This document shows, piece after piece, positions 20,654 through 56,901 of a DNA stretch of 64,000 nt. The DNA is from Kalmusia sp. IMI 367209 (taxonomy: Eukaryota > Ascomycota > Dothideomycetes > Pleosporales > Didymosphaeriaceae). Position 1 is the first letter of the stretch; every line of letters starts with the position of its first letter. Below the pieces are notes generated by a model. That model was not told the DNA's origin. It ran no database searches and saw nothing but the letters and a program-made list of their open reading frames with translations. A program made the position numbers and the translations under genes. The stretch is from positions 1,054,001-1,118,000 of the forward strand of contig JAPEUQ010000006.1 in NCBI GenBank assembly GCA_027946365.1, in the 5' to 3' direction.

Positions 20654-22369
20654 CTACAAACCATTGTCTTGGCATGTGAATGCACCACCAAAATTATCTG
20701 CCTCATATCCATCGATGATACTCTGCACTGTAGCATATGTACCACCAGACAAGAACAAGAGACCAACGCAGCAGAGAGCTACATTGAAGAGGAAGCCGGC
20801 CCAGCCTCGAATGCCTCGGTTCTTGAAGTAAGCGCGGCCGTAGTCAGCTTCCCGCATGCGGAAGTACGCAACGCCCCAGTAAATGAAGCCGAAGAAGGCA
20901 TCGAAGAGCGAGCTCATCAGCGAGAGCAGATCCGAGAAGAAGGGAATGACCTCGGCAACGATGAAAGCCAGGACCCATAGAACAGCGAGAATCGCGGCCC
21001 AAGAAGCCCAGCCGAGCAACGTGTGGTTACCCATGTGCCTCGTGTTGTTGAAGAAGCGGAAGAAGATGAAGCGTGCGGACACAGATGCGTACAAGACACC
21101 CAGGAAGATGATGGTCGGAATCATGAACGAGAAAGACACCTTGAGGTAGACTTCGTTTCCGATGGAGCCGAAGGCCGGCGCTGTCATGTACTGGGTGCCA
21201 GTGTAGGCATAGACGATGCTTCCAACGAGACCGAAAACAATGACTTCGGCGATGGTGACGGCCCATAGCGCCTTGGGGAAATCCTTAGGCTCCTTCATCT
21301 CGGCAATGAAACTGGGAAGCGTAATCTGGCCAATGAAGGTGTAGCTGATATTCATGAAGGCGCTCATCCCCGCGACGAAAGTGGTGCCCTTGGCAGGAAT
21401 GGCGAGGACAATGGGTTCGATGGGTCCTTCAGCGATCGGATAACCTTTCGGGTGGTCCATGATACCAGAAAATATCGTGGCGAGCATCACTGAGATGAAG
21501 GTGAAGAATGCTGAAATGGTTGCACCTTTGGAAAGGGCGCTGAAGGTGCGCGGAAGTGAGCAGAGCCAGCAGATGACCGCCACAATGGCAGAGAAGCCGA
21601 TCGTGCATACGGAGTGTCCAGTCATGGTGTTGAGATATTTGGCTCCCACTAAGCAGTGCAGTCCCTAGTACTGGTAAGCTAGCGTCTGAATTTCTCAAGA
21701 AAAGATTTCGTACCTGAATAAAGGTGTTGTTCAGCAGAAACATGACGGCCGTGAACCAGAAAGCCCAACGGTGGTTGTAGAAGATCATCTGGCCAAGATC
21801 GCAGACATCACGGATTTCTGGGTGGCGCATGCAGAATTCCCTGCAAAGAATCAGACCTGTTGATGAGTGCACGTGAAGGATCAACTCACCAGCAAATGAG
21901 TGACGTGTACAAGACCATGGCCGCGACTACGACGGTCAAGATCAGGCCCGGTACCAATCCGAGAACAGAGTAAGACCACGGGAAAGACATGATAGCCAAG
22001 CAGATGTACTCGGAGAATAGCAGGGCGGCCGTCTACATTACGAGACTTAGTACCATGGAACGAGGGCACCGTGTCCGGGTTTGAATACGCCCAGGATACG
22101 AGGGAACAAGAACACACCTTTTGCCAGCTGCAAGTACGATATTGGATGGCATTGCCGGCCTCGAGCTCAATCTGCTTGCCTACAGAGACACTGGCCTCGT
22201 CACTGCTGTCCATGTCGCGCCGCGCGGGACCTTCGAGCCTGCTGCCGCGGCGGCCATTGTCGATGGACTGTTTCTCGGCATCCTTCTTGTACAGTTCCTC
22301 TGCCGTGCCGTTGATGTTGTCGTTGCTACTGTCGACCGGATCGGCCTTGGCTCCGAAACCTAACGCCAT
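20654..22369 (-). CDS. Neutral amino-acid transporter, AAAP family (Mtr-like)
   Basis: Proton-coupled amino-acid permease of the amino acid/auxin permease family, close in pattern to Neurospora Mtr (N system for neutral and aromatic amino acids), expected in the plasma membrane. Exons on the minus strand: 22369-22118, 22032-21890, 21840-21714 and 21664-20654, giving 510 residues. About 75 cytosolic N-terminal residues are polar. Membrane segments begin at TAALLFSEYICLAIMSFPWSYSVLG, and about eleven hydrophobic helices follow. Recognisable stretches are FNTRHMGNH-like loop residues, FIGQITLPSFIAEM and EPKDFPKALWA. An in-frame ATG at 22570 would add 67 residues without family character; MALGFGAKAD (22369) is preferred. 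Substrate specificity is inferred only from family. Confidence 0.88.
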
Positions 22370-31137: not shown

Positions 31138-33626
31138 TCATTCGACCTGAACACCTTCCTTAACCTGTTCTAAATACCCGACCAGTCGCTTCTTGATGAC
31201 CACTCCAACAAGAGCACCCGTACGTTCTTCAGTAACACAGAGATACTTTAATCCTAGCTTGCTGAACATCTCGACTGCGTACTCTAGTGGTGCTCGCGCA
31301 CAGATAGTCAGAGGAGCCCGATCCACAAACGGCGTCAGATCGACCTCCAGTGCATCCGGCGCTGGCCCATCATCTTGTTGGTTGCCCAGGAGGCGGACCT
31401 TCCAATCTGAAGCCAATTCAGATGGACACAACCTCGTAAGCCCAAATTCTAGCTCAGCTTGAGGGATATAGCCCTGTAGCATGGCTGGCATCGCAGCACT
31501 CGGCTTCTGCACCAGCACGAGCCCCGCATCCATCAATCCCCTCCCCTTCAGCAACCCTAACTTCTCTCTCAAGGTTCTCGCATCTGTGCTATCTTCCCCG
31601 ACTCCTATTTCCACAGTGATCTCCTCCATTGTCTGCCGCGGTGGCACAAGCACCTCGACCAACAATCCTTGCCCCCTCACCACCTTCACCGCTGCATCCG
31701 CATCCAAAAAAGGGTGCCCCAACACCGTTTGGGCAAGATCATACACGCCTTCCGCGGATATCGCGTCCGCAACCCACTTCGCAACCAGTATAGCGAGCAT
31801 ACAGGGTACGGTGTAAGATAGAGAACCGGTGAGTTCGAACATGATGACCGCGAGAGAGATGGTCATACGGGAGACGCCGGCGAGGAAAGCGGCAGATCCA
31901 ACGAGGGCAAAGATGCCTGGGGAGATGCTAGGGATGAAGATTCCGAGCAGGCGGCCGAAGAGCGCGCCGGCGTCGAGCGCAGGGATTATAACGCCTGAGG
32001 GGACTTTTATGCCGAAGGTCAAGGTGGTGAGGAGGAGTTTCGTGAAGGTGCCGTAGAGAAGGTAACCTGGATAAGCCAGTCAGATAGAGGACTGAGGGCT
32101 TAGGTATCAGAGGATCCTACCTATGTATGTCCAACTTACCTCGCCATCTTGGTTTTCGTTCTGACATACCCACGAGGATGCTGCAGCACTGCCCTCCCCA
32201 CAGTCGACAAGCAAATTCTTGATAACAACATCCCCCGGGTCGCGCGTCAGCGGATTCGGAAACTGCAGCAGCGCCGTGGCCAACACCACAATGCCCACTT
32301 CCAGCACAGGATTTCCTCTCACAACCTCAAAGGATCGGAACCAGTTGGACCACTTGAAGTTCAACTTGCAGAACAGTCCTCCGAAAACACCACCAGCGAC
32401 CCCCAGCACCACGAAAACCAAGTAATGCACGGGCTGATAGTCAGTGTCGTAGTTCGTCTCAAACAGCACCAACTTCCCCGTCCCCATCGGATTCAACTCC
32501 TTCAACACCATCGCCGCGACCATGCTACACAGAAACGCACGCCACAGCACCGTCCGCGGAAAGTAGGTACTGATCTCCTCATAGCTGAACAGCACGCCGC
32601 CAATGGGGGCCCCGAACGCGACGCTGAGACCACTTGCGCACGCACTGCTCAGAAGCTCTCTCATCTTGCGGCCATTGTCTCTATACTTTGGAAACAGGCT
32701 GCCGACGAGGTATCCCACGCACGTTGAGATGTGCACGAAGGGGCCTTCCTTGCCAAGACACATGCCTGTGGAGACGGCGAAGACGGCGCCGAAGGCTTTG
32801 ACGACGAGCACGCGGAGGGACAGGAAAGAAGGGATGACGAAGCCCGAGAGCATGGTTTTGATTTCGGGGATGCCGCTGCCGGCTGCCATGTACATTGTCT
32901 TACCCTTCGGAAGGACCTCGTCCCCAGAGACGGTGTCAGGGGTAGCAACGGGTAGCGTACTCTTTGTGAGCATGGTGGCGGTGGAGCTTATGATGCCGAA
33001 TACAAGCGCCATTCCTACGTATATGGCGAAGGAGGCAGTGTAGTTGTCTGTCCATGGGTGGAAGTTTTCGCAGTGGGGTTCAGAGACTGGGTCAGAGTGG
33101 ACAAGGGGTGTACGGTCGGTGCAGCATGCTTCGCGGCTTAGGAAGGGGTTCGTGGTGCAGTAGCCCACCTTCCAATCCGAAACGGTGACGACGGCGACGT
33201 CTACAAAGAAGGCTATACACGCCGTTACAGCTCCAATGGCAACGACTGCTATCCATCCCGAGCAAGCTTCAAAGAGTGAAATCGCATGGTAGCGGAGTCC
33301 TTTGCGGGATTGAATGTACCGGAAACGAGACGAGTCTTTGACCTAGTTATGATTATCAGATAATGTTGACATCCAAAAGAAGGGGAGCCAGCGGCGCAGA
33401 GAAGACTCACGAGATCGCGAAGCCAATCAATCGTCGTATAATCGTTATACGGCAATCTCTCGCCCACCAGGCCCCAACTTATTTCTTGCTCTTCTTTGGT
33501 CAGCGTGCTCGAAATAATACTCTCTGCTTCAACATCGTGCTCATGCTGCAGTTGGCTCAACCGCCCGTTAGCAACGTGATGTAGCAATGCAGTGCGCTCG
33601 TTCGTTTCATGCTCATCAGATGACAT
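31138..33626 (-). CDS. CLC-type voltage-gated chloride channel or Cl-/H+ exchanger
   Basis: Endomembrane or plasma-membrane chloride transporter related to yeast Gef1. Exons 33626-33411, 33342-32121 and 32066-31138 (introns 68 and 54 bp) give 788 residues. Selectivity signatures are intact: GSGIPE (about 227-232) and GKEGPFVH (about 269-276), whose Glu is the gating/proton glutamate, plus GIKVPSG in exon 3. Ten or more membrane helices are evident. Two CBS domains fill the C-terminus (about 586-660 and 720-784). The second donor is GTAGGA at 32120; a better-looking GTAAGT 19 bases earlier in the transcript leaves the wrong frame. The N-terminal tail is cytosolic and acidic. Exchanger versus channel cannot be settled from this alone. 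Confidence 0.93.
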
Positions 33627-34681: not shown

Positions 34682-37039
34682 TCATTTTCCGACACCGAGA
34701 TTCAACCATGACATGTCCTGCCCACCGTCTTTGCGGGAAGGAGCCCCGGGAAACACGGTTACTGTGCTCTCCCGGCCCTCGGGTGGCCCTCCTAGACGTG
34801 GAGGTGCAGGATAGAAGGAGTCGAAGTTGCTCTCTTGCTGTTTTGATTGAATATTTGATAGATTACCAGCGGGGAAAACGGTATTGGTGCTTTCCCGAAT
34901 GTCGGGTGCACCGAGCCTTGGTTGACCAGGGTAGAAGGAGCTGATCCCGCTCTTCGGGTAGAATGAGCTTGTACCATCGGGATAGTATGAGCTAGCGCCA
35001 TCGCGATAATTGTCGATAACCATGCTACCCGTGTAGTTGCTGCTTGGTGGTCGCTCATCGTGGCCCACAGGTGTCCAGCTTTCGACAGGATCTCTGAGGT
35101 AGTGGTCATCGTGGCTTCTGCCAGAGTGTGTGCTGGCCCCCGAATTGGCGCGAGCCAGTTCTGCCTGCATAGGCTGACCGGGTAAGTTATCAGTCGAGTT
35201 GCCTAATGTTGGGCTTCCGGTGGTGACTTTGCTCAGACGTTGATTTTCGAATTTAGGAATATCCAGTGGTGGGATGGCTTGCGGTGGCTGGCTGTACATC
35301 CGCGAGTCGGTGTACATTGACTGGCTGCCAGTGCTTGTGCGTTCAGATGCAAACGTGGATCGATCTGCGGGCATGGCAGCAAGATTTGTCGCGTCGTTGT
35401 TGGCGAAGTAACGGCTCCAGCCAGAGCTGCGACTTCTGCTGAGATTGCCAACTGCTCGGGGCTGTGGCGGTATCCGACCAGAATTTTGACGGATAATCTT
35501 CTCATCAATAGGTTCAGGCTTCAGGTCGAACTTCGACAGCTCAACCGGCTCTGAGTACCCGAGTGGGCTGGTCTTCTTGACCAGGCCTGATGTGCTAGCA
35601 TCGCTTGCCATGCCTCGCTTGTGACCGTTGGCTCGGCCTGCAATGATGGCCAAAGACGTCTGCGAAGAGTTGACCTCTGCAAACTTAGGCTGAGCGAAGC
35701 CCGAGCCTCCCGCTTCCTTCATGAACTCGGCGCCGCGGTCCGCGAAGCTCAAGCGATCCTTCTCCACATATCCTCCTTGCTGCGTCCTCCTCTTCTTCGA
35801 CTTCCTCCAACGGAGGCAGAAGAGAAGCAGGATGAGTAGGGCAGCAATTCCGAAGATGGCGCCCAAAGTTGCTCCAAGCACGGTTAGCATCCTGTCCTTG
35901 TTGTTCACTGATGCGCCAGCTGGCGGGGCCACGGCAGCGGAAGAGGAGGCTGCGGGTGATTCCGTTGCCGTCGAACTTGGCGACGAGGACGTTACAGAAG
36001 ACGAAGGAGAGAGGACAGACTGCAGTTGTCTTCCTGTGAATAGTTCCGTTGCGTTAATCCATGAGTTCTCGGACGCGTCAAAGATGCACAGTGGATCCTC
36101 AGCTGAGCCTCCCGTCATGACGACTCTGTCAGAGTCGCTTTGCGCAATCGAGTAGCCACTTCGGATGGCTGTGGGGGCGAGAGTGCCGTTATAAGTGGGA
36201 AAGTCGTCGATCGTCAATCGTTTCGTCTTGTCACCAATAGTCGTGCCTTGGGCAGCAACAGAGCCACCCTTATTCAGCAGGACGGTGCGTGTGACTTTGT
36301 TAGGCGATACACTCATGTCAAATGTCTCCAACACTTTACTTCCATCAGTGCCCGAGATCATTGTGCACTGAACCATCTCCTGGCTGGTGATGGGTGCTGG
36401 AAGCGCGACACCCAGATCCCGCCACCCTTCCAGTGCGCCCGAGGCATCCTGCATCGCACCGAAAGTGTAGATTGCGGTATTTGAGGCTCCACCACCGACC
36501 ATGACTGCGTGGGTCGAGTCCCACGGCATAAGCATCGGCTTCGTCAGGGGTGGGTTAGCTCCTGCCGGCTGGCTTAATACACCAAAGGGCGTTCTTGTGT
36601 CGATCAGAAAGCTCTCCGACGAGAGGCCGCTAGATTGAGGATCGGAAGAGCCTGAGTAGACTAGGATCTGTTTCGCGTCGGGGATGTAGATGGCTGCGTG
36701 ATTCGTTCTCTCTTTCGTCACCCAGCTCTCCGATCGCTGCCAATCCCACTTCTTGTCTTTGAAAGAATAGTGCATCAACCCAGGGTAGTCCCACTGTCTT
36801 ACTGTCTCGTTCACTCTACCACCAACGACATATAGCATGTCGGTGTTGGCATCTCCAGCACCTGGCGCCAGAATGCATTCGGCGCCCGTCAACGAGATAT
36901 CCATCGGCAGCGTTTCCCATTCTGACCCTTTCGCAAGATCCAACGACTGAAACCCCTTTGGCGAATAGACATAGAGCGTGTTCTCGTGTATGACGGAGCA
37001 ATGGTTCTCCAGAGGGAATACGGGGTCGCGGAAACTCAT
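34682..37039 (-). CDS. Kelch/beta-propeller-like single-pass membrane protein
   Basis: Intronless, 785 residues; function unknown. Residues about 1-330 contain repeated beta-propeller-like strands (VYSPKGFQSLDL, MLYVVGGRVNE, QILVYSGSSD, HAVMVGGGASN, RVVMTGGSAED), resembling kelch or galactose-oxidase blades. A Ser/Thr/Pro/Ala-rich stalk (about 340-380) leads to one transmembrane helix (about 386-410) and a basic stop-transfer RWRKSKKRR. The C-terminal ~370 residues are disordered and cytosolic if the propeller is outside. They end in degenerate repeats of the form SFYP..PRLG.P..RES..VFP (at least two copies) with related SSYYP/SSFYP units. No classical N-terminal signal peptide is visible, which is odd for an extracellular propeller. 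A wall- or cortex-sensing role is conceivable but unproven. Confidence 0.85.
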   Translation of the reverse strand: MSFRDPVFPLENHCSVIHENTLYVYSPKGFQSLDLAKGSEWETLPMDISLTGAECILAPGAGDANTDMLYVVGGRVNETVRQWDYPGLMHYSFKDKKWDWQRSESWVTKERTNHAAIYIPDAKQILVYSGSSDPQSSGLSSESFLIDTRTPFGVLSQPAGANPPLTKPMLMPWDSTHAVMVGGGASNTAIYTFGAMQDASGALEGWRDLGVALPAPITSQEMVQCTMISGTDGSKVLETFDMSVSPNKVTRTVLLNKGGSVAAQGTTIGDKTKRLTIDDFPTYNGTLAPTAIRSGYSIAQSDSDRVVMTGGSAEDPLCIFDASENSWINATELFTGRQLQSVLSPSSSVTSSSPSSTATESPAASSSAAVAPPAGASVNNKDRMLTVLGATLGAIFGIAALLILLLFCLRWRKSKKRRTQQGGYVEKDRLSFADRGAEFMKEAGGSGFAQPKFAEVNSSQTSLAIIAGRANGHKRGMASDASTSGLVKKTSPLGYSEPVELSKFDLKPEPIDEKIIRQNSGRIPPQPRAVGNLSRSRSSGWSRYFANNDATNLAAMPADRSTFASERTSTGSQSMYTDSRMYSQPPQAIPPLDIPKFENQRLSKVTTGSPTLGNSTDNLPGQPMQAELARANSGASTHSGRSHDDHYLRDPVESWTPVGHDERPPSSNYTGSMVIDNYRDGASSYYPDGTSSFYPKSGISSFYPGQPRLGAPDIRESTNTVFPAGNLSNIQSKQQESNFDSFYPAPPRLGGPPEGRESTVTVFPGAPSRKDGGQDMSWLNLGVGK

Positions 37040-43286: not shown

Positions 43287-44282
43287 ATGACAACAGTCAT
43301 CAAAAGATTCCCGTTTCCCATGCCAGAGCCTCTCCATCGAATATTTCGTCTGTACAATAGATCATTTTCAACTGCACCAAGAAAGATGAATCCATTGCAA
43401 GAAGCGAGTAAGGTGTTCAAGGCGTTCAAAAAGGGCGGGCCGAGCTTTGGGGCATGGCAGGTACAGTGTCACCTCAGCGTTGTTGGTTTTGCGAGCTGTG
43501 TTGAGAACCTGTCAGATGCTTCCCGGAACTAACAACTCTCGCGCAATTGCTCGCTCAGGTGTAGATTGGATCTGTGTAGACTGCGAGCACGGCAATATCG
43601 ACGGTACAGCTACCATTCCTTTCCTTATCCTCAGCAAAGTCCACCTAGCTGAATTTCCAAAGATGGCCAAATGCACGAAGCCGTAAACGCCATCTCCGCC
43701 ACAGGCGTCAGCCCCCTTGTCCGCATCGCCGCAAACGAAACATGGATGGTCAAGCGCGCGCTCGATTCGGGTGCCCACGGCATCGTTGTCCCCCTCATTT
43801 ACACCGTAGATGACGCCAAACGCCTTGTTTCCGCTGCCAAGTTCCCTCCACAAGGCTCACGGGGCTTCGGCTCACCTTTCAGCACCCAGGCATTCTCCAA
43901 CGACACCCTGACTACGTACCTGCAAAACGCCAACGATGCCCTTCTAACTATCGTGCAGATTGAGACCAAATCCGCCCTCGAATGCGTGCAAGAGATTGCC
44001 GCTGTGCCGGGCGTTGATTGCTTACTGATTGGGCCGTTTGATTTAGGCAACAATATCGGAAGACCAATTCTAGGGGAGATGCATCAGGAATTGAAGGATG
44101 CCATCGAGAGAATCAAGGAAGCGGCGCATAAGGAGGGAAAGAAGGTCGGAATTTACTGTACGAGTGCAGAGCAGGCAAAGAGCTGTGCAGAGAGGGGCTT
44201 CGATCTGATCAGCATTGCGAATGATCGGGGGGCTATAACGGATTATTTTAGCCAAACTTTAGCGATAGCAGGTGGAAAGTGA
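43287..44282 (+). CDS. HpcH/HpaI aldolase/citrate lyase family protein
   Basis: Class II, divalent-metal-dependent aldolase fold acting on 2-keto-3-deoxy-type acids; the specific substrate is unknown. Exons 43287-43460, 43516-43603 and 43663-44282 (introns 55 and 59 bp) join to 293 residues. Family motifs: FGAWQM.P, DWICVDCEHGNIDDGQMHEA, PLVRIAANETWMVKRALDSGAHGIVVPLI, QIETKSALECVQEIAAVPGVDCLLIGPFDL. The metal-binding Glu (QIE) and Asp (GPFD) are present. The N-terminal ~34 residues (MTTVIKRFPFP.., RLYNRSFSTAPRKM) look like a mitochondrial presequence; initiation at the internal MNPLQEASK would give a cytosolic form. Confidence 0.9.
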
Positions 44283-44560: not shown

Positions 44561-46408
44561 TTATGCCATATCATCATCCGAATTGCTGGCTTCTGCTGCC
44601 GTCCCCTCCTCGCTCTCATTGCTTTCATTAGCCTTGGTATCTTCGACCCTTTCTTCAGAGGTCACGGGTTCTTTCAGTACACAAGAGACTGCGTCCGCAG
44701 TATCTTTGCGCTTGTGACCGTATGGACTCCAACGGCGGCCCTCTGAATGTCGTTGCGGCTTGCGATTGTTCGAATGAGGATTCTTGATGATACTCCCATC
44801 ATCCTTTCGCTTGAACATGGTGTCAAGTTGGTCGATATCGTCGGATATGTCTGCGTCTTTTTCGTCCTCCCAAACCATAAGATTGATGCCATTGATCTCG
44901 ATAGATCGACATCCTGTGCGCGGGACGTGGAAAACGTCGGGTCCTGTATCACTATAATCACGCTCCCAAGTCTCCTTTTGCTGTAGCTTTGTAATGTAAT
45001 CCATCGGCAGCGTGTACAGCACATTGTCTTCCTTGTCGTAGAGCTCCCTCAGAGGATAGCTTAACACAGCTAGACCCAAACCACAATCGACACGCGAGGA
45101 GATGGGATGTAACCTTCCACCAAAGACTTTGAGCTCAAATGCAATACCCGACTCTGTCCACATGTTGTCGTTGAAAAAAACTTCAGGGTGACCAAGTGGA
45201 TGGTCGCGATGAGGGCCAGATACTTCAATGAAGTGCGCCATTTCGTGTGCGAGGCAGACAGCTAGGAATAGGTTGAAACGGAGGACCATGGCAGGTTCGG
45301 GATATTGTAGAACGCTGAGTTTCTTCGCTGTGGTGTAAAAGTCGGAGTGTAAGCAGATTCTACTAGTGTGACACTTGTCATTGATCTTCCGCATTATTCC
45401 ATTCTTATAGTCGGCTACCAGGCCCATTGATGCATATGCAGGATCAGGAGGTAATGGATCGCGATGAAACATGAAGTGGACGGTGTCCACCTGTTTTTCT
45501 ATAAATTCCTTGAAATCGGTAGCGTGTTGTTCTGACCAAGCGACATCCTCAAGGATGCGATAGCAGGGCTGGCCATACACTTCCGACGTCTTGTCGCATG
45601 TTTTTCGCTCACCGAAGACAAGCGTGTGCCAAAAACTGAACGTGGCCCGAGAGAACATCAGTAAGGTGCTAAGACGCAGGGCGGGCTTCAACACCTCATA
45701 GATTTTGTCTGAGCAACCATGGAAGTTCTCTGGGCGGAAAATGGTATGTATGTCGTTGTCCAAGGTAGATTTTGTAGCTGAAGCATTCTCTGGAAATTTG
45801 ATGGCTTGATTCTGGATCAGCTCAACCGCATCAAAACCAAGTTTGACAGACTTCCGCTTCAGAGGATCCTTTCGATGGCCGAGGAGGCGTCTATACTTCT
45901 CCAAGACCTTCCGGTCTGCAACCTGAGCAAGGTGGTGGTTGATGGATATACTGAGCTGGAGACCAAAATCCTTGGGTACTTCGATCGTTGATGGTGTAAA
46001 CGAAACGGACTTTTCATAACTCAGAATATCGGGCAAATCTCGCACAAGCTTGTCTATGCATGCATCCATGACGGCACCTTCCTGGAGCTTGTGAAGAAGT
46101 ACGGCGTTGTCTCCTTGCTGCTCGATTTGGTATTCGCCATCACCGGCATCAGGAAGTAGGTGACGCATGTTCCGCGCCGTGGTTGGAGGAGGTCCGCATC
46201 CAGCTGGAGGCGTTGTGGTTCCAGTCGCAGTTGGTGTCCATTCCATGCTGTCCGGATCTTCCGGCTCCAATGTTGCTTCACTTTCTGCCACAACGGGCGC
46301 TTTGCTCTCTCCACCTTTCAACGACGTGTCATGGTTCAAGCGGTGCTCCAAAAGCTGGCTGACATGGATCATTGCCTCATACGCTTTGCGATAGCGAAAA
46401 GGATCCAT
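44561..46408 (-). CDS. Uncharacterised protein with HExxH zinc-metalloprotease motif
   Basis: I do not recognise a named family. A single 615-residue open frame. FLAVCLAHEMAHFIEVSG holds HEMAH (His388, Glu389, His392); 27 residues on, WTESGIAFE supplies Glu419, a plausible third zinc ligand in a gluzincin-like arrangement. Around it are conserved-looking blocks: PCYRILEDVAWSEQH, SRICLHSDFYTTAKK and FGGRLHPISSRVDCGLG. Residues 30-90 and the last ~100 are disordered and acidic or basic. No signal peptide or membrane helix, so it is probably intracellular. It lies on the same strand as, and 954 bp downstream of, the giant DUF3638 gene. Proteolytic activity is inferred only from the motif. Confidence 0.85.
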   Translation of the reverse strand: MDPFRYRKAYEAMIHVSQLLEHRLNHDTSLKGGESKAPVVAESEATLEPEDPDSMEWTPTATGTTTPPAGCGPPPTTARNMRHLLPDAGDGEYQIEQQGDNAVLLHKLQEGAVMDACIDKLVRDLPDILSYEKSVSFTPSTIEVPKDFGLQLSISINHHLAQVADRKVLEKYRRLLGHRKDPLKRKSVKLGFDAVELIQNQAIKFPENASATKSTLDNDIHTIFRPENFHGCSDKIYEVLKPALRLSTLLMFSRATFSFWHTLVFGERKTCDKTSEVYGQPCYRILEDVAWSEQHATDFKEFIEKQVDTVHFMFHRDPLPPDPAYASMGLVADYKNGIMRKINDKCHTSRICLHSDFYTTAKKLSVLQYPEPAMVLRFNLFLAVCLAHEMAHFIEVSGPHRDHPLGHPEVFFNDNMWTESGIAFELKVFGGRLHPISSRVDCGLGLAVLSYPLRELYDKEDNVLYTLPMDYITKLQQKETWERDYSDTGPDVFHVPRTGCRSIEINGINLMVWEDEKDADISDDIDQLDTMFKRKDDGSIIKNPHSNNRKPQRHSEGRRWSPYGHKRKDTADAVSCVLKEPVTSEERVEDTKANESNESEEGTAAEASNSDDDMA

Positions 46409-47362: not shown

Positions 47363-50300
47363 CTACTCGAAGTCGTTCCGCTCTAGCAGTGCTCCATCGA
47401 GGATCTTGCCCAAGTGCGTTTTGCCGATGCCCTCACCGTCTCTTCGGACCTTCACTACCATTTCTCTTAGAAATTTCACCGGGCTTGTCTGCAGGCCCCA
47501 AATTCCCATAGGCGGCACTACGAAACCATCTGTTTGCACAGTCTGAGCCTCGATCGTAGCGCCGGATGCAAGACCAAGGTATTCGCACAGCTCGACATAC
47601 TCGTCGTAGGAACGAAAGTAGAGTTGACCAGAAAAGAGATTCAGCTGTACAATGAGACTCCTCGGGACCGAAGTAGGGTCGAAGGGCCTCCCTACTGAGT
47701 ACAGGTCCAAAGTGTCCAATGGTTGGTAGGCGAGACTGGTTCGCGCTGCGTATAGATGCAGTGTCACCTTTGACAAGGTCTTGATCTTGACTAACAGCTG
47801 ATCGGCTTCGAAAGGGCTGATGACTATAAGTTTCATAACCGTCGAAGAACCTTGAATCCGAGGTGATTGTTCTGGGACTGAAAGGATCCATTGGATGGGT
47901 CTGTGGTAATTATCTGAAATATATGACTTTGATGGTAGACCTGAAGGCCGCTTGACAGTGCGAATGTAGTCGGTCGTGACAAGCAGATCCGTCGGGAACT
48001 GTTTTGGATCGAAGGACTTCGCCACGCTTGTGGAATTCAGTGCTTCAAATGCTGGTACAAATGCCCGCGAACTGTATGGGAGCTGGCCAGTCTCTACCAA
48101 GAGCACCAGATCCTTGTGTAAACTATGCTCCTCGGCTTGCATTGAGGTTAGACGTTGTACTTCTCGTTCTTCTTCGATCTCTGGGGCCAATTCACGTTCC
48201 TGTTCCTCCTGGAGTGTCGCCGAGTTAAAGGTCTTGATACCGAAGTCTTGACAGCGCTTCACGATCTCTGAGTTGTTATCATCCATAACATCACACTCTC
48301 TATGAATCCGTCCAATAGAGGAATGAGGACGTGGACGATACCGTTGCTCGATCGTTTGCGCTTCGACCTCGAGAAACCCATTGGCATCTTCTTTTGTAGT
48401 GTGCACGCCGTGCAGTAGGTCCTTATGATCCTCAAAACGACGACCTTGAGTTGCCCATAAGGGGAGGCTCCTACGGAGATCGACTAGGCTTTCTTGGATG
48501 CCCCAAATGAGGACATCCGAGACTTCAATAGGGTGAGCGGCCGGCTTAGATCTGCAATCTACAATTCTATTCCGTATTTCTTCAGGGATACAGAATACCA
48601 CGGTCTGTCCCTTGCCAAGCTTCCTCATTCGCATACAGGCTTGTACGAGTCGGTCTTTGGTGAGGTTTGCTCCCAACGTCACCGCCGCGCGATATGAGTG
48701 AGGCAATTTCAAATCCGTCCCTCTAGTATGCGCCTCATCAAGATAAATGAGACATTCGATCAAACGTTTTGCGAAAGGTGACGTTTGGAGGTGCTCAACT
48801 GTGTCGTTGCGATCAAGCACGCAGAGTTCCTCCTCGTCGTTGAAGAATACTACTGCTTTCGTTGTGGCAAGATTGCTCATTTTCAACCACGTTTGGGCCA
48901 CTTGGAGATTGTTCAATTCCAAAATTTGAGCACCAACGTCTAAAATCACCCTTGTCGGATCCTCCATACTGTTGACGAACGCAATTAAATGCTCGGCATC
49001 CGAAGTGTCCTGGGTCTCGCACGGGGGTAGCACCTCGGCGCTGTTCCCTCCTCCAAGAAGATAGTCTAATACAAGAGCATTAGTATGCTTTTGATTAGGA
49101 AGGTCGAGATGATGTATAGTGAGCGGTAACATATGTCGTGCATCAATCGTGCCGCTAAATCCCGTGGTAGGATTTGGCTTGATCTGGGCAATATCCCAGC
49201 CAGAGGCTGAAAGCTTATGCGAAAACTCTCTCATTTCCTTCGCGAAGACCACTTGGGATAAAAAATAGTCTATCGCTCCCTTGGAATATCGAAGCGGAGG
49301 GAAGATATCATGGAGGCATTGAGAACGATCCTTGATGTTAACGCTCCCGAGATGGCGGTATGTGTCGACTAGCTGATCTGAAGTTCGAACCCATTGATGA
49401 TACTCACTCACAGCCTGATCGGAATTCATCAGGTGTGCAAAAGCATCGAATAGATCTTCGTCAGATAGTCCCCCGTAATAGTAAGTGAGTGATGTAAGAA
49501 CGATTACCACATCGGGATGGGAGAATTCAGATCTCAGGGATGGGTTGTCCTTGGAGCGATATGGCACAGCCAGTTTTGTTCTCGGGGAACGGCGTAAGTC
49601 GAGACCATAGTTGACCCTCCAGCGTTTTGCTTGAATGGTAAAACGCAGTACGCCACAAGCTAGCAAGCCGCGTACGAGCAAGAGTGCCTCCTTGGCGGAT
49701 TCATTCCAGAAGTCGCTTTCTTCGACGCTCTTAATATCATCCTGGGATAAATTAAGATTCCTTATGTACCGAAAAACAGCTTGCTGCATCGCTTGCGATA
49801 AGCGTGCTACAGCGAGGCCAGGAAAGGCACATCGGCATATATGGCTCGCAATTAGATCCAAAAGTAGGCCCTCTGCGTCATCTCGTAAAAGCCTCACTCG
49901 TGGGAATCTCCTTCCATGTCGTACCACTTCGATAGAAGAAGGCATTTCAGTCTTGACTTGTAATGCATAGCGACCAACCAGTTCCAGTATTGCTTGTACG
50001 ATTGTCCACCTTCCCGGAGTCATATCGATTGGCCTTTGCGTGCCAATGGTGTATACAAGTTCAAATTTAGGACTGAAGTTTTCATCGCTTTCGTCGACGA
50101 TGTCGCGAGACTTTAGATCGAAGAACTCTTGGATTCGCAATAAAGAATGCCCCAATTCATGTTTCTCGTTGATTAGGCATTCGATGCCCATTAACTTGAA
50201 CGAAAGGAGATGCTCCGGTTGTACCAGAAGAATTCCTCGCCTAGCCATACAGTCTTGAAATATCTCGCCGATGATGTTAGCCTCGGCAGCGTTGAGGCTC

Positions 50301-53300
50301 AGCGCCCTAGTGAAAGGCAAATGGTAAATGCGTCTATTTAAGAGACCGCCGAGTTTGGAGACCAGCATCTCTAACATTTGTTTCGATTGTGGTTTACCGA
50401 CGATAACTCTGACTAGCCTATGGTCATTGGATTAGTATGCTGTTATGAAATATAGAAGCAATACTGTGACTAGGCTGACCTTTTTCCATCTGCCAAAGCA
50501 GCAGCAACCATAGGCACAATGACACTGGACTTTCCCTGTCCCATATTCAGTTGCATGGCTGAATTACGATTCTCTGGAGGTTCTCTCATTTGTTGTGCAA
50601 TCTCCTGTTGGACTTCGCGTACCATGATGCCACTTTCAGCCTCTAAAAGCAGTATCTCCGGTTCCTCTTCGGGTTCCCAATTTTGATGTCCACGGTTTCG
50701 AAGTTCTTCCGCAAGTTCTTTGTCATATTTTGAGAGTCTAAGCAGCCTTCGAGCTCGATGAAGGTCAGTCACGGCGAGTCCGTATTGTATGACGATGGTT
50801 TGCCATCCCTGAGGAAGCTTAACATATCTGTCTAGGTTGAGCTGCTCAAGCCAGAAGGTTGGGGAAATGCGAGGACATTGTCCTAAAAGAGGTCCAATAT
50901 CTTCGCCTGAACTAACCACATTTTCTAGTAACGTAGTAACATCCCGGAAATATCGGAGACATTTCGCGAAGTACGACCGTAGCAACCTCTCGCGTTGAGG
51001 GAGTGTCAAATTCTTGGTAATCTCATAATAGGATGGCTGAGCCTGGAGGGAACTACGACTTTCTCGAAGGTCTAAAACATATTGTTTCTCACAAGGAGAG
51101 ATTGCTAATGTATCTAGAGTCTCACACAATCGTGTGAGTCGATCTTTCGTCCGAGAACGTTGGTTGATGACGGAACATTCTATTAGGGTAATGTCTTCTT
51201 TGATATCTTCTGGGATGTCCGGCCATGCCAGAGTTGACATTTCCTTTGCTAGTCACTCGTTAGCAAGATCTGTGTAACAGGATGGTAGAGTCGTCAATTG
51301 TGGAATTGTAAATTTCTTGACTGCTTCCAAATTATACTTACAACCATTTGATGAGAGTAGCGGAACCATGTCGAAGATATCTCCTTTTGTGAAGGATCGA
51401 TTTGTCCCAGAATGCTCGATGTTCTCAGGAGCGGCTATTGTCTGACTCTTGTTCAAGAGCACCTCACATATCTTTTGATTTCCCATAGCTTTTGCGACTT
51501 TCCAAATGTATTCCTCAAAACGGTGGTTGTTATACCAAGACTTGAAACTAGGAAGAAGCTGTTCCATGGCGAGTTTGGTGTCAATGTATATATTTGCATT
51601 CTCCAGGGCTGGCTTCTCAGGTCGTTCGCAAGGCCATTGAATATATAGAGCATGCGCGAAATCCGCAATAGCTTTTCCTTGATTGGCATTAAATTCGTGG
51701 TACTTTCTCAAAACTAGATCGTAGGTCGTCTCCCCTGATCGACATTCTAAATGTTGCTCAGGACAACTCTTAATTGGGCGCCGCGCCGATATTTTAGCTC
51801 TGATAATCGACGAAGAAGGATTACATCCTTTGGAAAGTTCAAATTGCGCAATGGGAGGTACACTGACAGACCTCACTTCTGGTATCCTGTAGAGAGCTGC
51901 CAATGCTTGAACAACATTCATATCAGCCCTTCCAGAGAATGCAATGGTTGCCAACCACATTGCTACTGCGAACTTGTTGAATCGATGTGATGTTGACGAT
52001 AAAGCAGAATGAAAACTGCACCACACTTTCGGAAGGAAGCATGAAGGTTGACTGAGCCATTCTATTGCAAAGTTGAAGCTACTGGGCTCCAGAGATTGGC
52101 CGGGACCTTGTACAGTGGCATCGCCAAAATGTTTGCATAGGCACCGCTGTACTTCTGCCACACTCATCGGAGAATGCAAAGCCTCATCGTCTCGTAATAT
52201 CATTTTAGTAGCGATGAAGGAACGTTGGCTTCGCTCTGGAGTTGATAGTTTGCTCCTCGCAGCGTAGATTACGTCGAACTGGCGAGTGAATGCCTCTGCA
52301 CCGAAACCATCGACTTGAAAGGTGGATGATCGGATCATGTCCCGATGGAGAAGAACGGAATGAGCAAAGCCGAGTTTAGGTGGTTCAACTTGGGCATGTG
52401 TTCGGTATAGAAGTCGCTTCTTTTGTGAATCGATAAAGAGGCGTTCGACTTCGTTATAGAAAGAGGGGTGCTGCGACATGAATGGCAATTGCGCGTCCCA
52501 GTGGACCTGTTGCATTTCCTTTGCCCATTTTGGATAGTAATCCCGGCCAGGAGTCAACCTTGCTATTCGTCCTAGAAGCTTCATTTCTTCTTCTCCAGGA
52601 ATATCGAAAGATGCTACTGCTGCCGAACGCAATATCTTTAGTGCGGATTCAGTGCCTGTATGTCCAGTGGCAGGGTCGATCAGACAGTGGCTAGTAAGCG
52701 CATGAAGATAGCATAGATATAGCTTGCTCTGAAGACTACCATCATCGATTAGCCGACTGAGAGTGCTATCTAGTGAGTAGACACGGATCTTGGTCGCGGT
52801 ATTTGGATCGATGGACACAACCACATGGTCAAGCTTTTTTTGGTAGGTGATCGAACCTTCAGGAATCAAGATGGAGCGACCTTCAGTATCACATTCATGC
52901 TTAAGCACTAGCTTATTGCACAATCCTATCAATGTCGCGGTCATCTGATCAGAGTCAATAATCATGCCTGGATATGTCCGGCATGAGATACGTGTTCCTT
53001 CAGGGGACCATAGGAAGCTAAGCCGCAGCCTTGGAAGCTCTATTGAAACATTGAAACAGTCATCCAATGTTGTATGAATGTAGTTATGATGCTCAAGAGG
53101 CGCTAGCATCTGTGAAAGCGTGCGACCAGTGTCGCTGGAAGGATTAATGAGACAGCAATGCGCGTTCACAAGTTGCCACTCTGAGTTGAACCGTTTAAGT
53201 CTCCAAAGTTCAGTACTAGAAGTCCAAGGATCCAGTCGTGGTCTGAATTCAACTTCACCAGTAGTATGGTCGTACCAATGGTGAAAATATTCCACAAAAG

Positions 53301-56300
53301 CAGTTGGAAGTAGATTCTTTAGAAGCCGCGATGGAACAAGATCAAATTTCTGTCCAGGCTTGACTGCTAGGACCAGCAAATCAGCGCCATCTATCGCAAA
53401 GCTCAGTTCGTAATCTGAATGCTTATGCTTTGCAGAGTATGCCATTCCTGCTTCTCGACTAGGCATGACTTCTATTGAAATGCCTCTGAAAAGTGCCGAG
53501 TAAGTCTTGTGCAATTCGTAGGATCGTGGTAGCCGAGACAATGGTAAGCCATTCACGAGGAGCTCAGCCGTGAGCAGGTTGAAGTGAACGTCGAGAAAAT
53601 CACACTTAACGTGAGCCCAGTGATGTTTAGGCTCATCAAGTAGAACCCAAGAACCAGTAGGTCGATATGACGTCCATGCAGCGCTCACTGCCTCATGAAA
53701 CTCTGCCTCCAAAGTTCCGGATACGATTCCGTTCCGCAGTGTAGCCAGGGCACGGTAAAGTAATGCCATCCAAGAATGCATCATGTTGCGATGAAGGAAC
53801 ATGTCCTCAGTAGAGATTACTTCGTGAGCTTCCTGTATTGTGATTGAGCTTTGTAGTAGAGCCGAAACAGTAGAAGGTGGAAAGAGAATAAGGTCCAGAT
53901 GCATATCATCAACGTCAAATGTGCTCATGCACACAAGTGCGATATTAGTAATTCTTGAAGAGAGCTCAACTCGCTGTACATTATCTATAGCTGTACGAAG
54001 TCTCTGCTTCAGGATTTTGATCCAGTGAAGTGCAATCTGGCGGCTGGTATCGAGATGACCCGTGCACAGCGATCGAACCTCGTCGCAATTTGTGATTTCG
54101 AACACTCGAAGAATGAGCTGCACACATAATTCAAGAGCCCTCCACGTTTCCCAATTTCCTTTGACTCTATCAAGAGTATTCTTGATTTCTTTCATCAAAA
54201 TTTGACAAAAAGACTCATCGAGAAGAATTTGGTGGGCTATACGTTCCACATAAGCTCCATGTGATGCTGGACCAGCCATGTGAATGGTCTGGAGAAGTAG
54301 ACAATGCGTCTCAGCCTTTCCAAGATCCACAGTTGGCATTGCAAGTTGAGCCAAAATATTCAAATACTGAATATTGTAGCCAAGCGGCAACACGCCAAAT
54401 GCCTTGAACTCTCCCATTGAGATGTGAGCAGGGGAATCGGACAAAGAGGCGATGACTGTATTTGCCGTTACATCCTGGGATGTGTAGGGGTTTCTGAGGT
54501 AGCTTTGAAGCTTTGAAGACCGTTCGGGAACCTGATATGTGCATCTTGTTGCAACAATGTCGGTGGCTTGCAATTCGCTGGTGACGTATTTATCAGATGA
54601 GTCATAATAACTGAAGTTTAAGGCATTGTTCAGACAGACGTCTTCATTTTGTATGAGAGCTACTCCTCGTTGAATTCTGTAGTGAGTACCGGACATTGGG
54701 TTGGTTGCTGAAGAGAGTCTAATTCGCTGTGTTGATATGTCGGATCGGAAAGGAGCTAGGCCATCATAACGGTGCAGCGTGTATATTGTAGTAGCTGAGT
54801 AGGTACGGTATTGCGTGAAACTCAGCACATCCTTCAGAATGAACATTGTTGCATCCCGCCAATGACTGTAGTTTTCCGGCACTTTGATCTCAAAAACCGT
54901 CGCTTTAGCCGTCGAATCTTCTTCACTCAAAGGCCATTCGTGTACCTCAAGACCGAGGTTTTCCGCCTGATGGCGCTTCGTGCATCTAGGGCATTTCTCA
55001 GTTGATATAACACGTTTTCGCTTGCGTCGACCGTGAGGATAATAGATTTCCTCGTGGTTTTCGCAAGGTAATTTGTCTACTTGTGCCATAATCTTGCTGT
55101 ATTCTGCTTTCAAGGTTGCAAGTTCACGATGTTTCTCTTGACGTTTGGTTGTCGCATCTTGCTCGATACTGGTACGCAACAGTTGATGCAAGGGCGACTG
55201 GTCGAAGAACCTAACAGCGAAAGAGGAAGGTTTGCCAAAATTTCTAAAGATGGAAGGTACGTCAAGCTTGGCCTTGGCCCGGCGAGAAATTAGGTATTTC
55301 TCGATAACATGTAATCGTACCAATTGACTTCGGAAAGGGAGCAAGAGAGCTTGTAGTGAGTCGAAGTTGATTTCTGGGTCATACTCAAGTAGTAACGGAT
55401 ATGAATGGCATGCGCATTTGTCAGATGCAACCCATAGTTCCATCAAAGTCAGATACATGATCGACGCGAATTTCGGTACATTTATGCTTGACGGGTACTG
55501 TTCATTGCATAATCGATGGTATCCTTGCATTAAAGTTCCGAGTTGTTCGCAAGTTGTCTCCTCATCAATATTACAATCCAACCAAGATGATAGATTGTCT
55601 CTCACCCATTTCTCGATAGCGGACAAAAGGAATAGTTCATATCCTTGGCTTGCATTGAGCGCAGAGGGAATCTTGTCTGCAGGGAAGAAAGGGCAATTCG
55701 AGTCGGGGCTGAAAGTAGAGACTCTTGGTCGGTCTTGCCGGTCAGCAATAGATTTTCGGAAATTGTCTACTAAAGACAAATGAAGTGTAAGGTCATTGGA
55801 TGGCCTAAGCATCGGCAAACGATTCATATCGATGCTCGTATTGGGCTTGTCCATGATCGTGGTCCATTTCATCTTCATCATCCTATGCGCCTTGAGCAAA
55901 ACGGGCTGACTCAAAGCAAATACAAGGCGACAAAGGTCTTCGCGCTGTGAGCACTGTAACTTCCGTAGCCGCTGATCTAATTTCGAAGTGATTGCGTATA
56001 ACATCTCCGATTCGAGCTTATCCGGAAGCTCCGTGGCAAGCTCAAGGATCTTGGTCAGTACCTGTACTATGATTGCTTTGTAGATACTATGGGCCGTAGT
56101 ACAATCGGAGAGACGAGAGAATGTAAGTTGCATAGTGACACGCATCAGCAGCCACAGTGGTGATCTTCGCCATGGCATGGAAGTTTGTGACCACAGAATG
56201 TCTTCGCGTGTGCTCTTGGAGATACTACTGACATCTGCTGGTATACCTAGAGCGGCAAGGACACTGACAAGGTAGTCAGTGACGATACCTGGGTGGGTAG

Positions 56301-56901
56301 TATCCCAAGTTTCGCTTAGATAGTGTCCCGCCTTCTGAACTTTGGGTTGGAACTCCGGCACACTTTGAGAGCTCATCCTTGCAATGGCACGTGCGAGTGT
56401 CTCGACCAAGCCTTCCTCAAGAAACCGAGCAACAGGAATTTTGTAAGCGTACTGGGGAAATGAACGAATCAGGCGCCCTCTGGTAGCCATCACTGATTCG
56501 TTCTGTGGTGATAGTTCGAACATCTCGATAACGATGCCACCGTCTCGCTTACTCACGATGATCCCGGAATTCTGAGCTTTCACCTCTAGCGGTATAGATT
56601 CCGAGGTATTAGTGATGCTAAGTTTGTGAAATAAGGTCACCAGTTGCTCTTCGGCAACAAAGCCGTCATCGTTGCGACTGAGGCTGAGGTTCTGAAAAGA
56701 CAACAGGACTGATTGGACTTGTTGAACTAGCCCTGCTGCATGTGTAGACAAGGCATTGTGCGCTTGCTGGAGCGCCTGGACGACTGTGTCTATGAGTGCT
56801 CGCTCGCGTGAGGCGTTCGAGTCATCCTTCTGCGGTAGCTTCTTTGGAAGGACTATGTGATGGATCAGATAGCTGGCGACATCTTTATTCAGAGTAGCCA
56901 T
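47363..56901 (-). CDS. Giant DUF6606-DUF3638-DUF3645 protein with SecA-like ATPase motifs
   Basis: Exons 56901-51342, 51248-50480 and 50417-47363 (introns 93 and 62 bp) join in phase to 3127 residues, the usual size for this fungal and plant family of unknown function, often auto-named ubiquitinyl hydrolase, for which I see no catalytic evidence. The N-terminus YLIHHIVLPKKLPQ marks DUF6606. A possible zinc site is Cys613, His616, Cys637, Cys640 (CENH..CPRC). The C-terminal third has a P-loop-like MGQGKSSV (2089-2096), VDESDE (2217-2222, Walker B-like), GFSGT (2529-2533), RGTDLKL (2675-2681) and QACMRMRKLGKGQ (2702-2714), in the order of SF2 motifs I, II, III, V and VI. Intron 1 is in frame and contains the only stop between exons; its donor is GTAAGT and its branch point GCTAAC. 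No signal peptide or membrane helix. Confidence 0.93.
50521..50541 (-). other. P-loop-like motif of the giant protein
   Basis: Codes for GQGKSSV (residues 2090-2096), preceded by QLNM. It has the position and form of motif I in SecA-type ATPases (GEGKT), with Lys2093 as the predicted phosphate-binding residue. Two Ser replace the usual Thr. Confidence 0.75.

Follow-up and report, generated by a model that had tools for sequence, protein, structure and literature searches.

A giant DUF3638/DUF3645 protein of Kalmusia with a probable SecA-type superfamily 2 motor

A 64,000-nucleotide stretch of the genome of the fungus Kalmusia sp. IMI 367209 (contig JAPEUQ010000006.1, positions 1,054,001 to 1,118,000; hereafter the window) carries on its reverse strand a gene for a giant protein with the Pfam domains DUF3638 and DUF3645. 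We consider it probable that the DUF3638-DUF3645 region of this protein is a superfamily 2 (SF2) motor built on the plan of SecA, which would most likely serve as an ATP-driven unfoldase or segregase of polypeptides in the cytosol. The SecA-type reading, put forward in an initial annotation made from the letters alone, is largely supported by the predicted structure and by deep conservation of the motor residues. Because no curated SecA model matches the protein, we speak of a SecA-type motor and do not file it as SecA. If the proteins of this large family are SecA-type motors, the ubiquitinyl hydrolase label attached to them is wrong and the family gains a mechanism; SecA's plan for moving polypeptides would then also exist in the cytosol, without the SecY channel.

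Motor motifs and their conservation

The initial annotation had placed five motifs in order over about 625 residues of a protein of 3127 residues, with a Walker A lysine at position 2093 and a motif V arginine at position 2675. Splicing two introns reproduced this length and numbering, and in the spliced translation the motifs stand in the expected order and together cover 626 residues:

50521..50544, reverse strand: motif I (Walker A), MGQGKSSV, residues 2089-2096, including Lys2093
50081..50098, reverse strand: motif II (Walker B), VDESDE, residues 2217-2222
49148..49162, reverse strand: motif III, GFSGT, residues 2529-2533
48704..48724, reverse strand: motif V, RGTDLKL, residues 2675-2681, beginning with Arg2675
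48605..48643, reverse strand: motif VI, QACMRMRKLGKGQ, residues 2702-2714

A permissive regular expression, composed after the five motifs had already been seen and demanding their order and SF2-like spacings, found a match in the protein and in 0 of 2000 shuffled versions of it. The order is independent of our splice calls, because another gene of this genome, the sibling L008, holds DUF6606, DUF3638, DUF3645 and the whole motor region in one open frame of 2819 residues, the motor region being free of introns.

Conservation was assessed in 331 aligned proteins (310 P entries and 21 loci) that match the motor profile. Only rows with a residue at the position in question were counted, and the HMMER pieces of each protein were merged beforehand. 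The rows were divided into 241 fungal, 85 bacterial and 5 protist ones according to the originating search and the named matches, not row by row; three of the five protist rows come from a named organism or from EukProt, and P0305 and P0308 were assigned without one. The bacterial rows include duplicates (L013, for instance, is P0241). Eleven fungal rows begin downstream of motif I, and 42 rows are gapped at the first motif VI arginine, 40 of which stop before it.

With counts given for fungi, bacteria and protists in turn, the Walker A lysine is present in 230/230, 85/85 and 5/5 rows, the motif II aspartate in 238/239, 85/85 and 4/4, and the motif II glutamate in 237/239, 85/85 and 4/4. Motif III keeps its glycine in 238/240, 84/85 and 5/5 rows and its threonine (or serine) in 239/240, 85/85 and 5/5; motif VI keeps its glutamine in 236/236, 84/84 and 5/5, and its two arginines in 199/200 and 196/196 fungal, 84/84 bacterial and 5/5 protist rows. 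The expectation that the residues singled out in the initial annotation would be conserved was therefore borne out for Lys2093 and for the Asp and Glu that open the acidic run of VDESDE, which are near-invariant in all three groups, and failed for Arg2675, which is a fungal feature (238/239 fungal, 1/84 bacterial and 0/5 protist rows). Motif II reads DESD in most fungi and DExH in 77 of the 85 bacterial rows; the four aligned protist rows have DEVD (three) or DEID (one), DEVD being SecA's own form. The bacterial motors, only 17-20% identical to the fungal one, retain the motifs nearly throughout. The ordered motifs I, II, III, V and VI with their conserved catalytic residues place the region in SF2.

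Relics that act as switches have often lost Walker B or motif VI. The retention of the Walker A and B residues and of the motif VI arginines in fungi, bacteria and protists makes it quite improbable that the region is an ATP-binding scaffold devoid of motor activity, in which ATP would switch the conformation of a giant platform that might serve, for instance, incompatibility or defence in fungi. The giant size of the protein, the four copies in this genome and the expanded or lineage-specific DUF3638 copies described for fungi in the relevant passages of two reports (PMC6627653, PMC6237848) are what such a scaffold would have in its favour.

Predicted structure and profile comparison with SecA

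The structure prediction that the initial annotation had proposed, with tandem RecA folds as its expected outcome, gave that outcome for an intact relative (55% identical; AlphaFold2, predicted local distance difference test score 89.3). The model contains two RecA-like domains, with matches to SF2 cores over both halves. When it was compared with the PDB by Foldseek, ranks 1-18 were all SecA or SecA2 (best E 1.1e-7), followed by MDA5 (1.1e-4) and DinG as the next folds. VIA-align likewise listed SecA at ranks 1-18. Here the four SecY-bound SecA entries listed align over 530-557 residues, complete SecA without SecY over 408-444 residues (a range that omits two truncated constructs at 358 and 359) and other folds over at most 364 residues among the matches listed. 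For the window's own model, which is incomplete in that it lacks motif I, the corresponding lengths among the listed matches are 460-481, 325-375 and up to 329 residues. SecY-bound SecA aligns over at least 86 (relative's model) or 85 (window model) residues more than any listed SecA without SecY. The absence of other folds from the VIA-align listings was not counted as evidence.

SecA and SecA2 are the best structural match of the DUF3638 motor, and they share with it the order and sequence type of the motifs, the two RecA-like domains, a large insertion between motifs II and III and a long helix after the second domain. The corresponding features of the window, together with what follows the motor, are:

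49202..50080, reverse strand: insertion between motifs II and III, residues 2223-2515, at the position of the clamp-forming preprotein-crosslinking domain (PPXD) of SecA, as judged from the model, the motif spacing and the longer alignment of SecY-bound SecA
48422..48523, reverse strand: helix of 34 residues (model residues 632-665) directly after the second RecA-like domain, a candidate for the long helix of the SecA helical scaffold, from the model and the range of the SecA alignment
47366..48394, reverse strand: C-terminal region past the motor, of mixed alpha/beta character in the predicted model of the window's motor

Long strands (model residues 119-129 and 396-405) flank the insertion in the window model, and the PPXD of SecA is described as connecting to nucleotide-binding domain 1 via a beta-hairpin (PMC5603524, in its passage on this connection). 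The helix after the motor measures 34 residues in the window model and 40 in that of the relative. The spacing between motifs II and III has a median of 314 residues in fungi and 308 in bacteria among the rows passing a filter of 250-420 (231 of 331 rows, from which 137 and 131 were kept for the half-motor profiles used below), compared with 177-182 in canonical SecA, 145-218 in giant SecA-like proteins and 24-26 in ResIII-type helicases (5 of 30 passing a filter of 20-70). At about 310 residues the family spacing thus exceeds that of SecA, and the insertion is mostly helical in the models. Further differences from SecA are the lack of a match to a curated SecA model, the embedding of the motor in a protein of about 3000 residues, and a motif VI of the form Q..MR.R in place of Q..GR.GR.

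At the sequence level, profile comparisons tie the family to SecA only faintly. The whole-motor profile matched giant SecA-like proteins weakly, with E 5.3e-5 for fungi (probability 66.7) and 0.0059 for bacteria. The second RecA half matched a joint SecA set with E 4.2e-5, its motifs III, V and VI lining up with those of SecA, and reversed SecA profiles, used as a control, gave 0.018 or worse. In the other direction, when a profile was made from giant SecA-like proteins, 238 of the 331 family members scored at E<=10 (calculated for a nominal 1000 sequences; best 2.2e-5), a reach of which part could stem from Walker A alone.

Several results weigh against the SecA-type reading. At the sequence level, the Pfam model SecA_DEAD matched neither the protein nor its sibling at E<=10, and the SecA Pfam model found no match in the whole genome. 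In the PDB, searches by sequence with the window's exon and with two family profiles found no helicase. Whole-motor family profiles gave no match to canonical SecA in hhalign, and the second half on its own reached only 0.002 with the giant set alone and 0.071 with canonical SecA alone. The first half lies nearer to ResIII, at E 3.7e-6 compared with 7e-5 for SecA (0.032 for canonical SecA alone). It therefore speaks for SF2 and not for SecA specifically, and was not used as evidence for SecA. The ResIII control set comprised five sequences for the first half and one for the second, and tells little about the second half because of that single sequence. The insertion matched the PPXD by sequence at E 0.005 and probability 6.8, too weak for use. 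At the structural level, Foldseek did not separate MDA5 (4.2e-4) from SecA (5.6e-4) for the window's own model, and in VIA-align the length ranges of SecY-free SecA and of other folds meet for that model. In the Foldseek comparison of the relative's model, TM-scores to SecA at ranks 1-18 were low (0.32-0.44 by target length), with a root-mean-square deviation of 12.7-22.4 Å over whole chains. The VIA Z lead over other helicases was only 1.2 (relative's model) or 1.3 (window model).

These results bear on an explanation that we regard as unlikely, namely that the region, with its unusual insertion, is an SF2 translocase or helicase acting on nucleic acid (similar to RIG-I/MDA5, DinG or DEAD-box proteins), and that its likeness to SecA is that of SF2 in general. 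Such an enzyme would fit the ResIII-like first half, the place of MDA5 and DinG after SecA (and the tie of MDA5 with SecA for the partial window model), and the small VIA leads. In addition, one bacterial member lies exactly at the Pfam ResIII cut-off and another matches DEAD below the cut-off, and P0307, a relative taken as protist, has RanBP-type zinc fingers, which can bind RNA as well as ubiquitin. However, once the first domain is complete, the best SecA E-value leads by about three orders of magnitude, and complete SecA aligns over 408-557 residues against at most 364 for the other listed folds. Moreover, a generic SF2 likeness would not explain the at least 86 or 85 additional residues aligned with SecY-bound SecA, nor does the spacing of more than 250 residues between motifs II and III in the filtered rows resemble the 24-26 of the five ResIII controls. 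The RIG-I-like receptors (MDA5, LGP2 and RIG-I) share the SF2 core (in Foldseek MDA5 comes after SecA, and it leads when the partial window model is used) and differ in their shorter alignments (338-355 residues among the matches listed).

The ubiquitin label and a possible mechanism

Among the relatives listed by name, many bear the UniRef-type label ubiquitinyl hydrolase 1. That the protein is a deubiquitinase is nevertheless very improbable, given that no peptidase family was found with E up to 10 in the exons of the window and in the sibling gene, or with E up to 0.01 in the four protist and bacterial relatives scanned. In agreement with the initial annotation, the predicted structure, the conservation and the lack of a peptidase domain favour a translocase or helicase-like motor over a ubiquitin hydrolase. 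What the label could draw on lies in relatives taken as protist: P0305 has UBA domains, and P0307 has a weak ubiquitin-like match in addition to RanBP-type zinc fingers; P0303 has neither. UBA domains bind ubiquitin, and RanBP-type zinc fingers bind ubiquitin or RNA. These domains would fit an unfolding machine that recognises marked proteins, and RNA binding would be compatible with them too. P0303 and P0307 also have a thioredoxin-like domain, and EF-hand, lectin-like or F5/8C domains also occur among P0303, P0305 and P0307, that is, varied adaptors around one motor.

For the SecA-type motor we propose the following. The two RecA-like domains, one holding motifs I-II and the other motifs III-VI, would close on ATP and presumably hydrolyse it. 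The insertion of about 290 residues with DUF3645, at the position of the SecA preprotein-crosslinking domain, would probably clamp against the second RecA-like domain, and the long helix that follows would correspond to that of the helical scaffold of SecA. Most likely an unfolded polypeptide would be gripped in this clamp and moved by ATP-driven steps, passing by or into the N-terminal part of about 2000 residues, which might be an adaptor or a chamber. The initial annotation had noted the lack of a secretion signal, and we agree: none is obvious, the top hydropathy of any 19-residue segment that begins within residues 1-40 being 0.66. The site of action would be the cytosol, with no SecY, and the machine an unfoldase or segregase, neither a secretion motor nor a ubiquitin hydrolase.

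A wider proposal, which we offer tentatively and hold to be somewhat doubtful, is that the family represents a eukaryotic cytosolic unfoldase in which a SecA-type SF2 motor replaces the AAA+ ring. The DUF3638/DUF3645 giants would pull on proteins marked with ubiquitin (the protist versions with UBA or zinc-finger domains) or selected by adaptors, and amoeba-associated bacteria and giant viruses would have acquired the same machine for use in the host cytosol.

Distribution, gene structure and genomic surroundings

Of 7981 proteins scored in one database search, 2433 were relatives. Among bacterial and archaeal genomes a fungal profile found no relative in a first scan, and a broader fungal profile found one, in a Legionellaceae genome, which was also the sole match in a whole-phylum sample of 398 genomes. 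Within the order of that genome, 56 of 143 genomes had a match (55 above the Pfam DUF3638 cut-off), and most of the matching open frames are 2000-5000 residues long. Of the 70 proteins from a search with the bacterial motor, five were taken as protist (one named Leishmania sp. and two from EukProt). In the structure comparison, the first nine viral matches were giant-virus proteins (E down to 1.7e-25), seven named DUF3638 or ubiquitinyl hydrolase 1 and two uncharacterised. These relatives were found by structure alone, peptide patterns having found none in viral contigs; a scan of plasmids found none either. The giants of the Legionellaceae order and of giant viruses belong to the same family as the fungal protein. 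The bacterial ones differ from it in their low motor identity, in their mostly DExH motif II and in the absence of DUF6606 from the one scanned whole.

Within the open literature (subscription journals and preprints being outside the scope), DUF3638 was found in four papers, DUF3645 in one and DUF6606 in none; those four did not mention SecA in their main text, and SecA-like terms led to no further DUF3638 paper. In their DUF3638 passages these papers describe lineage-specific genes of unknown function, a fungal expansion, a large microsporidian family and unannotated Tetrahymena genes. A giant SecA-type protein is already a known kind, since giant SecA-domain proteins have been reported as common to insects, Daphnia, protists, Wolbachia and Amoebophilus (PMC3639933), and an account of Amoebophilus effectors names 'SecA-like helicase-related domains' as one kind of them (PMC3482391). 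As portrayed in the former report's section on them, those giants resemble the DUF3638 proteins in their great length, their SecA-type motor, their presence in eukaryotes and intracellular bacteria and their transfer between them. They have a recognisable SecA domain, whereas the DUF3638 proteins lack one and form a separate family, which has the look of a second and more diverged branch within the giant SecA-type proteins.

The same bacterial order also contains many matches to the SecA model in frames of 2000-4000 residues, beside a normal SecA of about 900 residues. Most of 18 such giant places that were fetched have SecA-like motifs, and two of them, with LDESDD (L069) or IDESDD (L074) and both with GISGTPGD and ARGIDI, look intermediate toward DUF3638.

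The gene itself is organised as follows:

47363..56901, reverse strand: whole gene, 3 exons, 3127 amino acids; the frame was computed after splicing, and fungal relatives align along the gene
56041..56868, reverse strand: DUF6606 (PF20255), N-terminal domain, by Pfam
51249..51341, reverse strand: intron 1, 93 bp, with a GTAAGT donor, a CTAAC branch-like site and a TAG acceptor; the frame is open across it, and an in-frame TGA lies inside
50418..50479, reverse strand: intron 2, 62 bp, which separates motif I from the rest of DUF3638; relatives are uninterrupted here (e.g. ADGSRLVRVIV)
49955..50688, reverse strand: DUF3638 (PF12340), split by intron 2, by Pfam; first RecA-like domain, motifs I to II
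49493..49582, reverse strand: DUF3645 (PF12359), within the insertion between motifs II and III, by Pfam

Removal of the two introns leaves a single open frame; a broken frame at the TGA of 51255-51253 was considered and rejected, as this TGA lies inside the first intron. DUF3638 spans exons 2 and 3 (182.4 and 105.5 bits against a cut-off of 31), DUF3645 lies in exon 3 (63.6 against 25) and DUF6606 at the N terminus; no other Pfam family scored above its cut-off in the gene.

The assembly (42.8 Mb in 30 contigs) contains four DUF6606-DUF3638 genes, with the two matches near each other in each (contigs C27, C25 and C11). One copy (L009) has MGKGKT as motif I and DECD as motif II. The top named relatives of the sibling gene L008 come from Lecanosticta, Zasmidium and Pseudocercospora, all of them Dothideomycetes.

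Downstream of the giant gene, a frame of 615 amino acids (44561-46408, reverse strand) has no Pfam match and contains an HExxH-type stretch, CLAHEMAHFIE; judged by this stretch, it is perhaps a metallopeptidase-like protein. Other neighbours in the window are a Kelch-repeat protein (34682-37039, with a Pfam match below its cut-offs), a CLC chloride channel (32107-33168), an amino-acid transporter (20654-21649) and an HpcH/HpaI aldolase-type protein (43671-44282).

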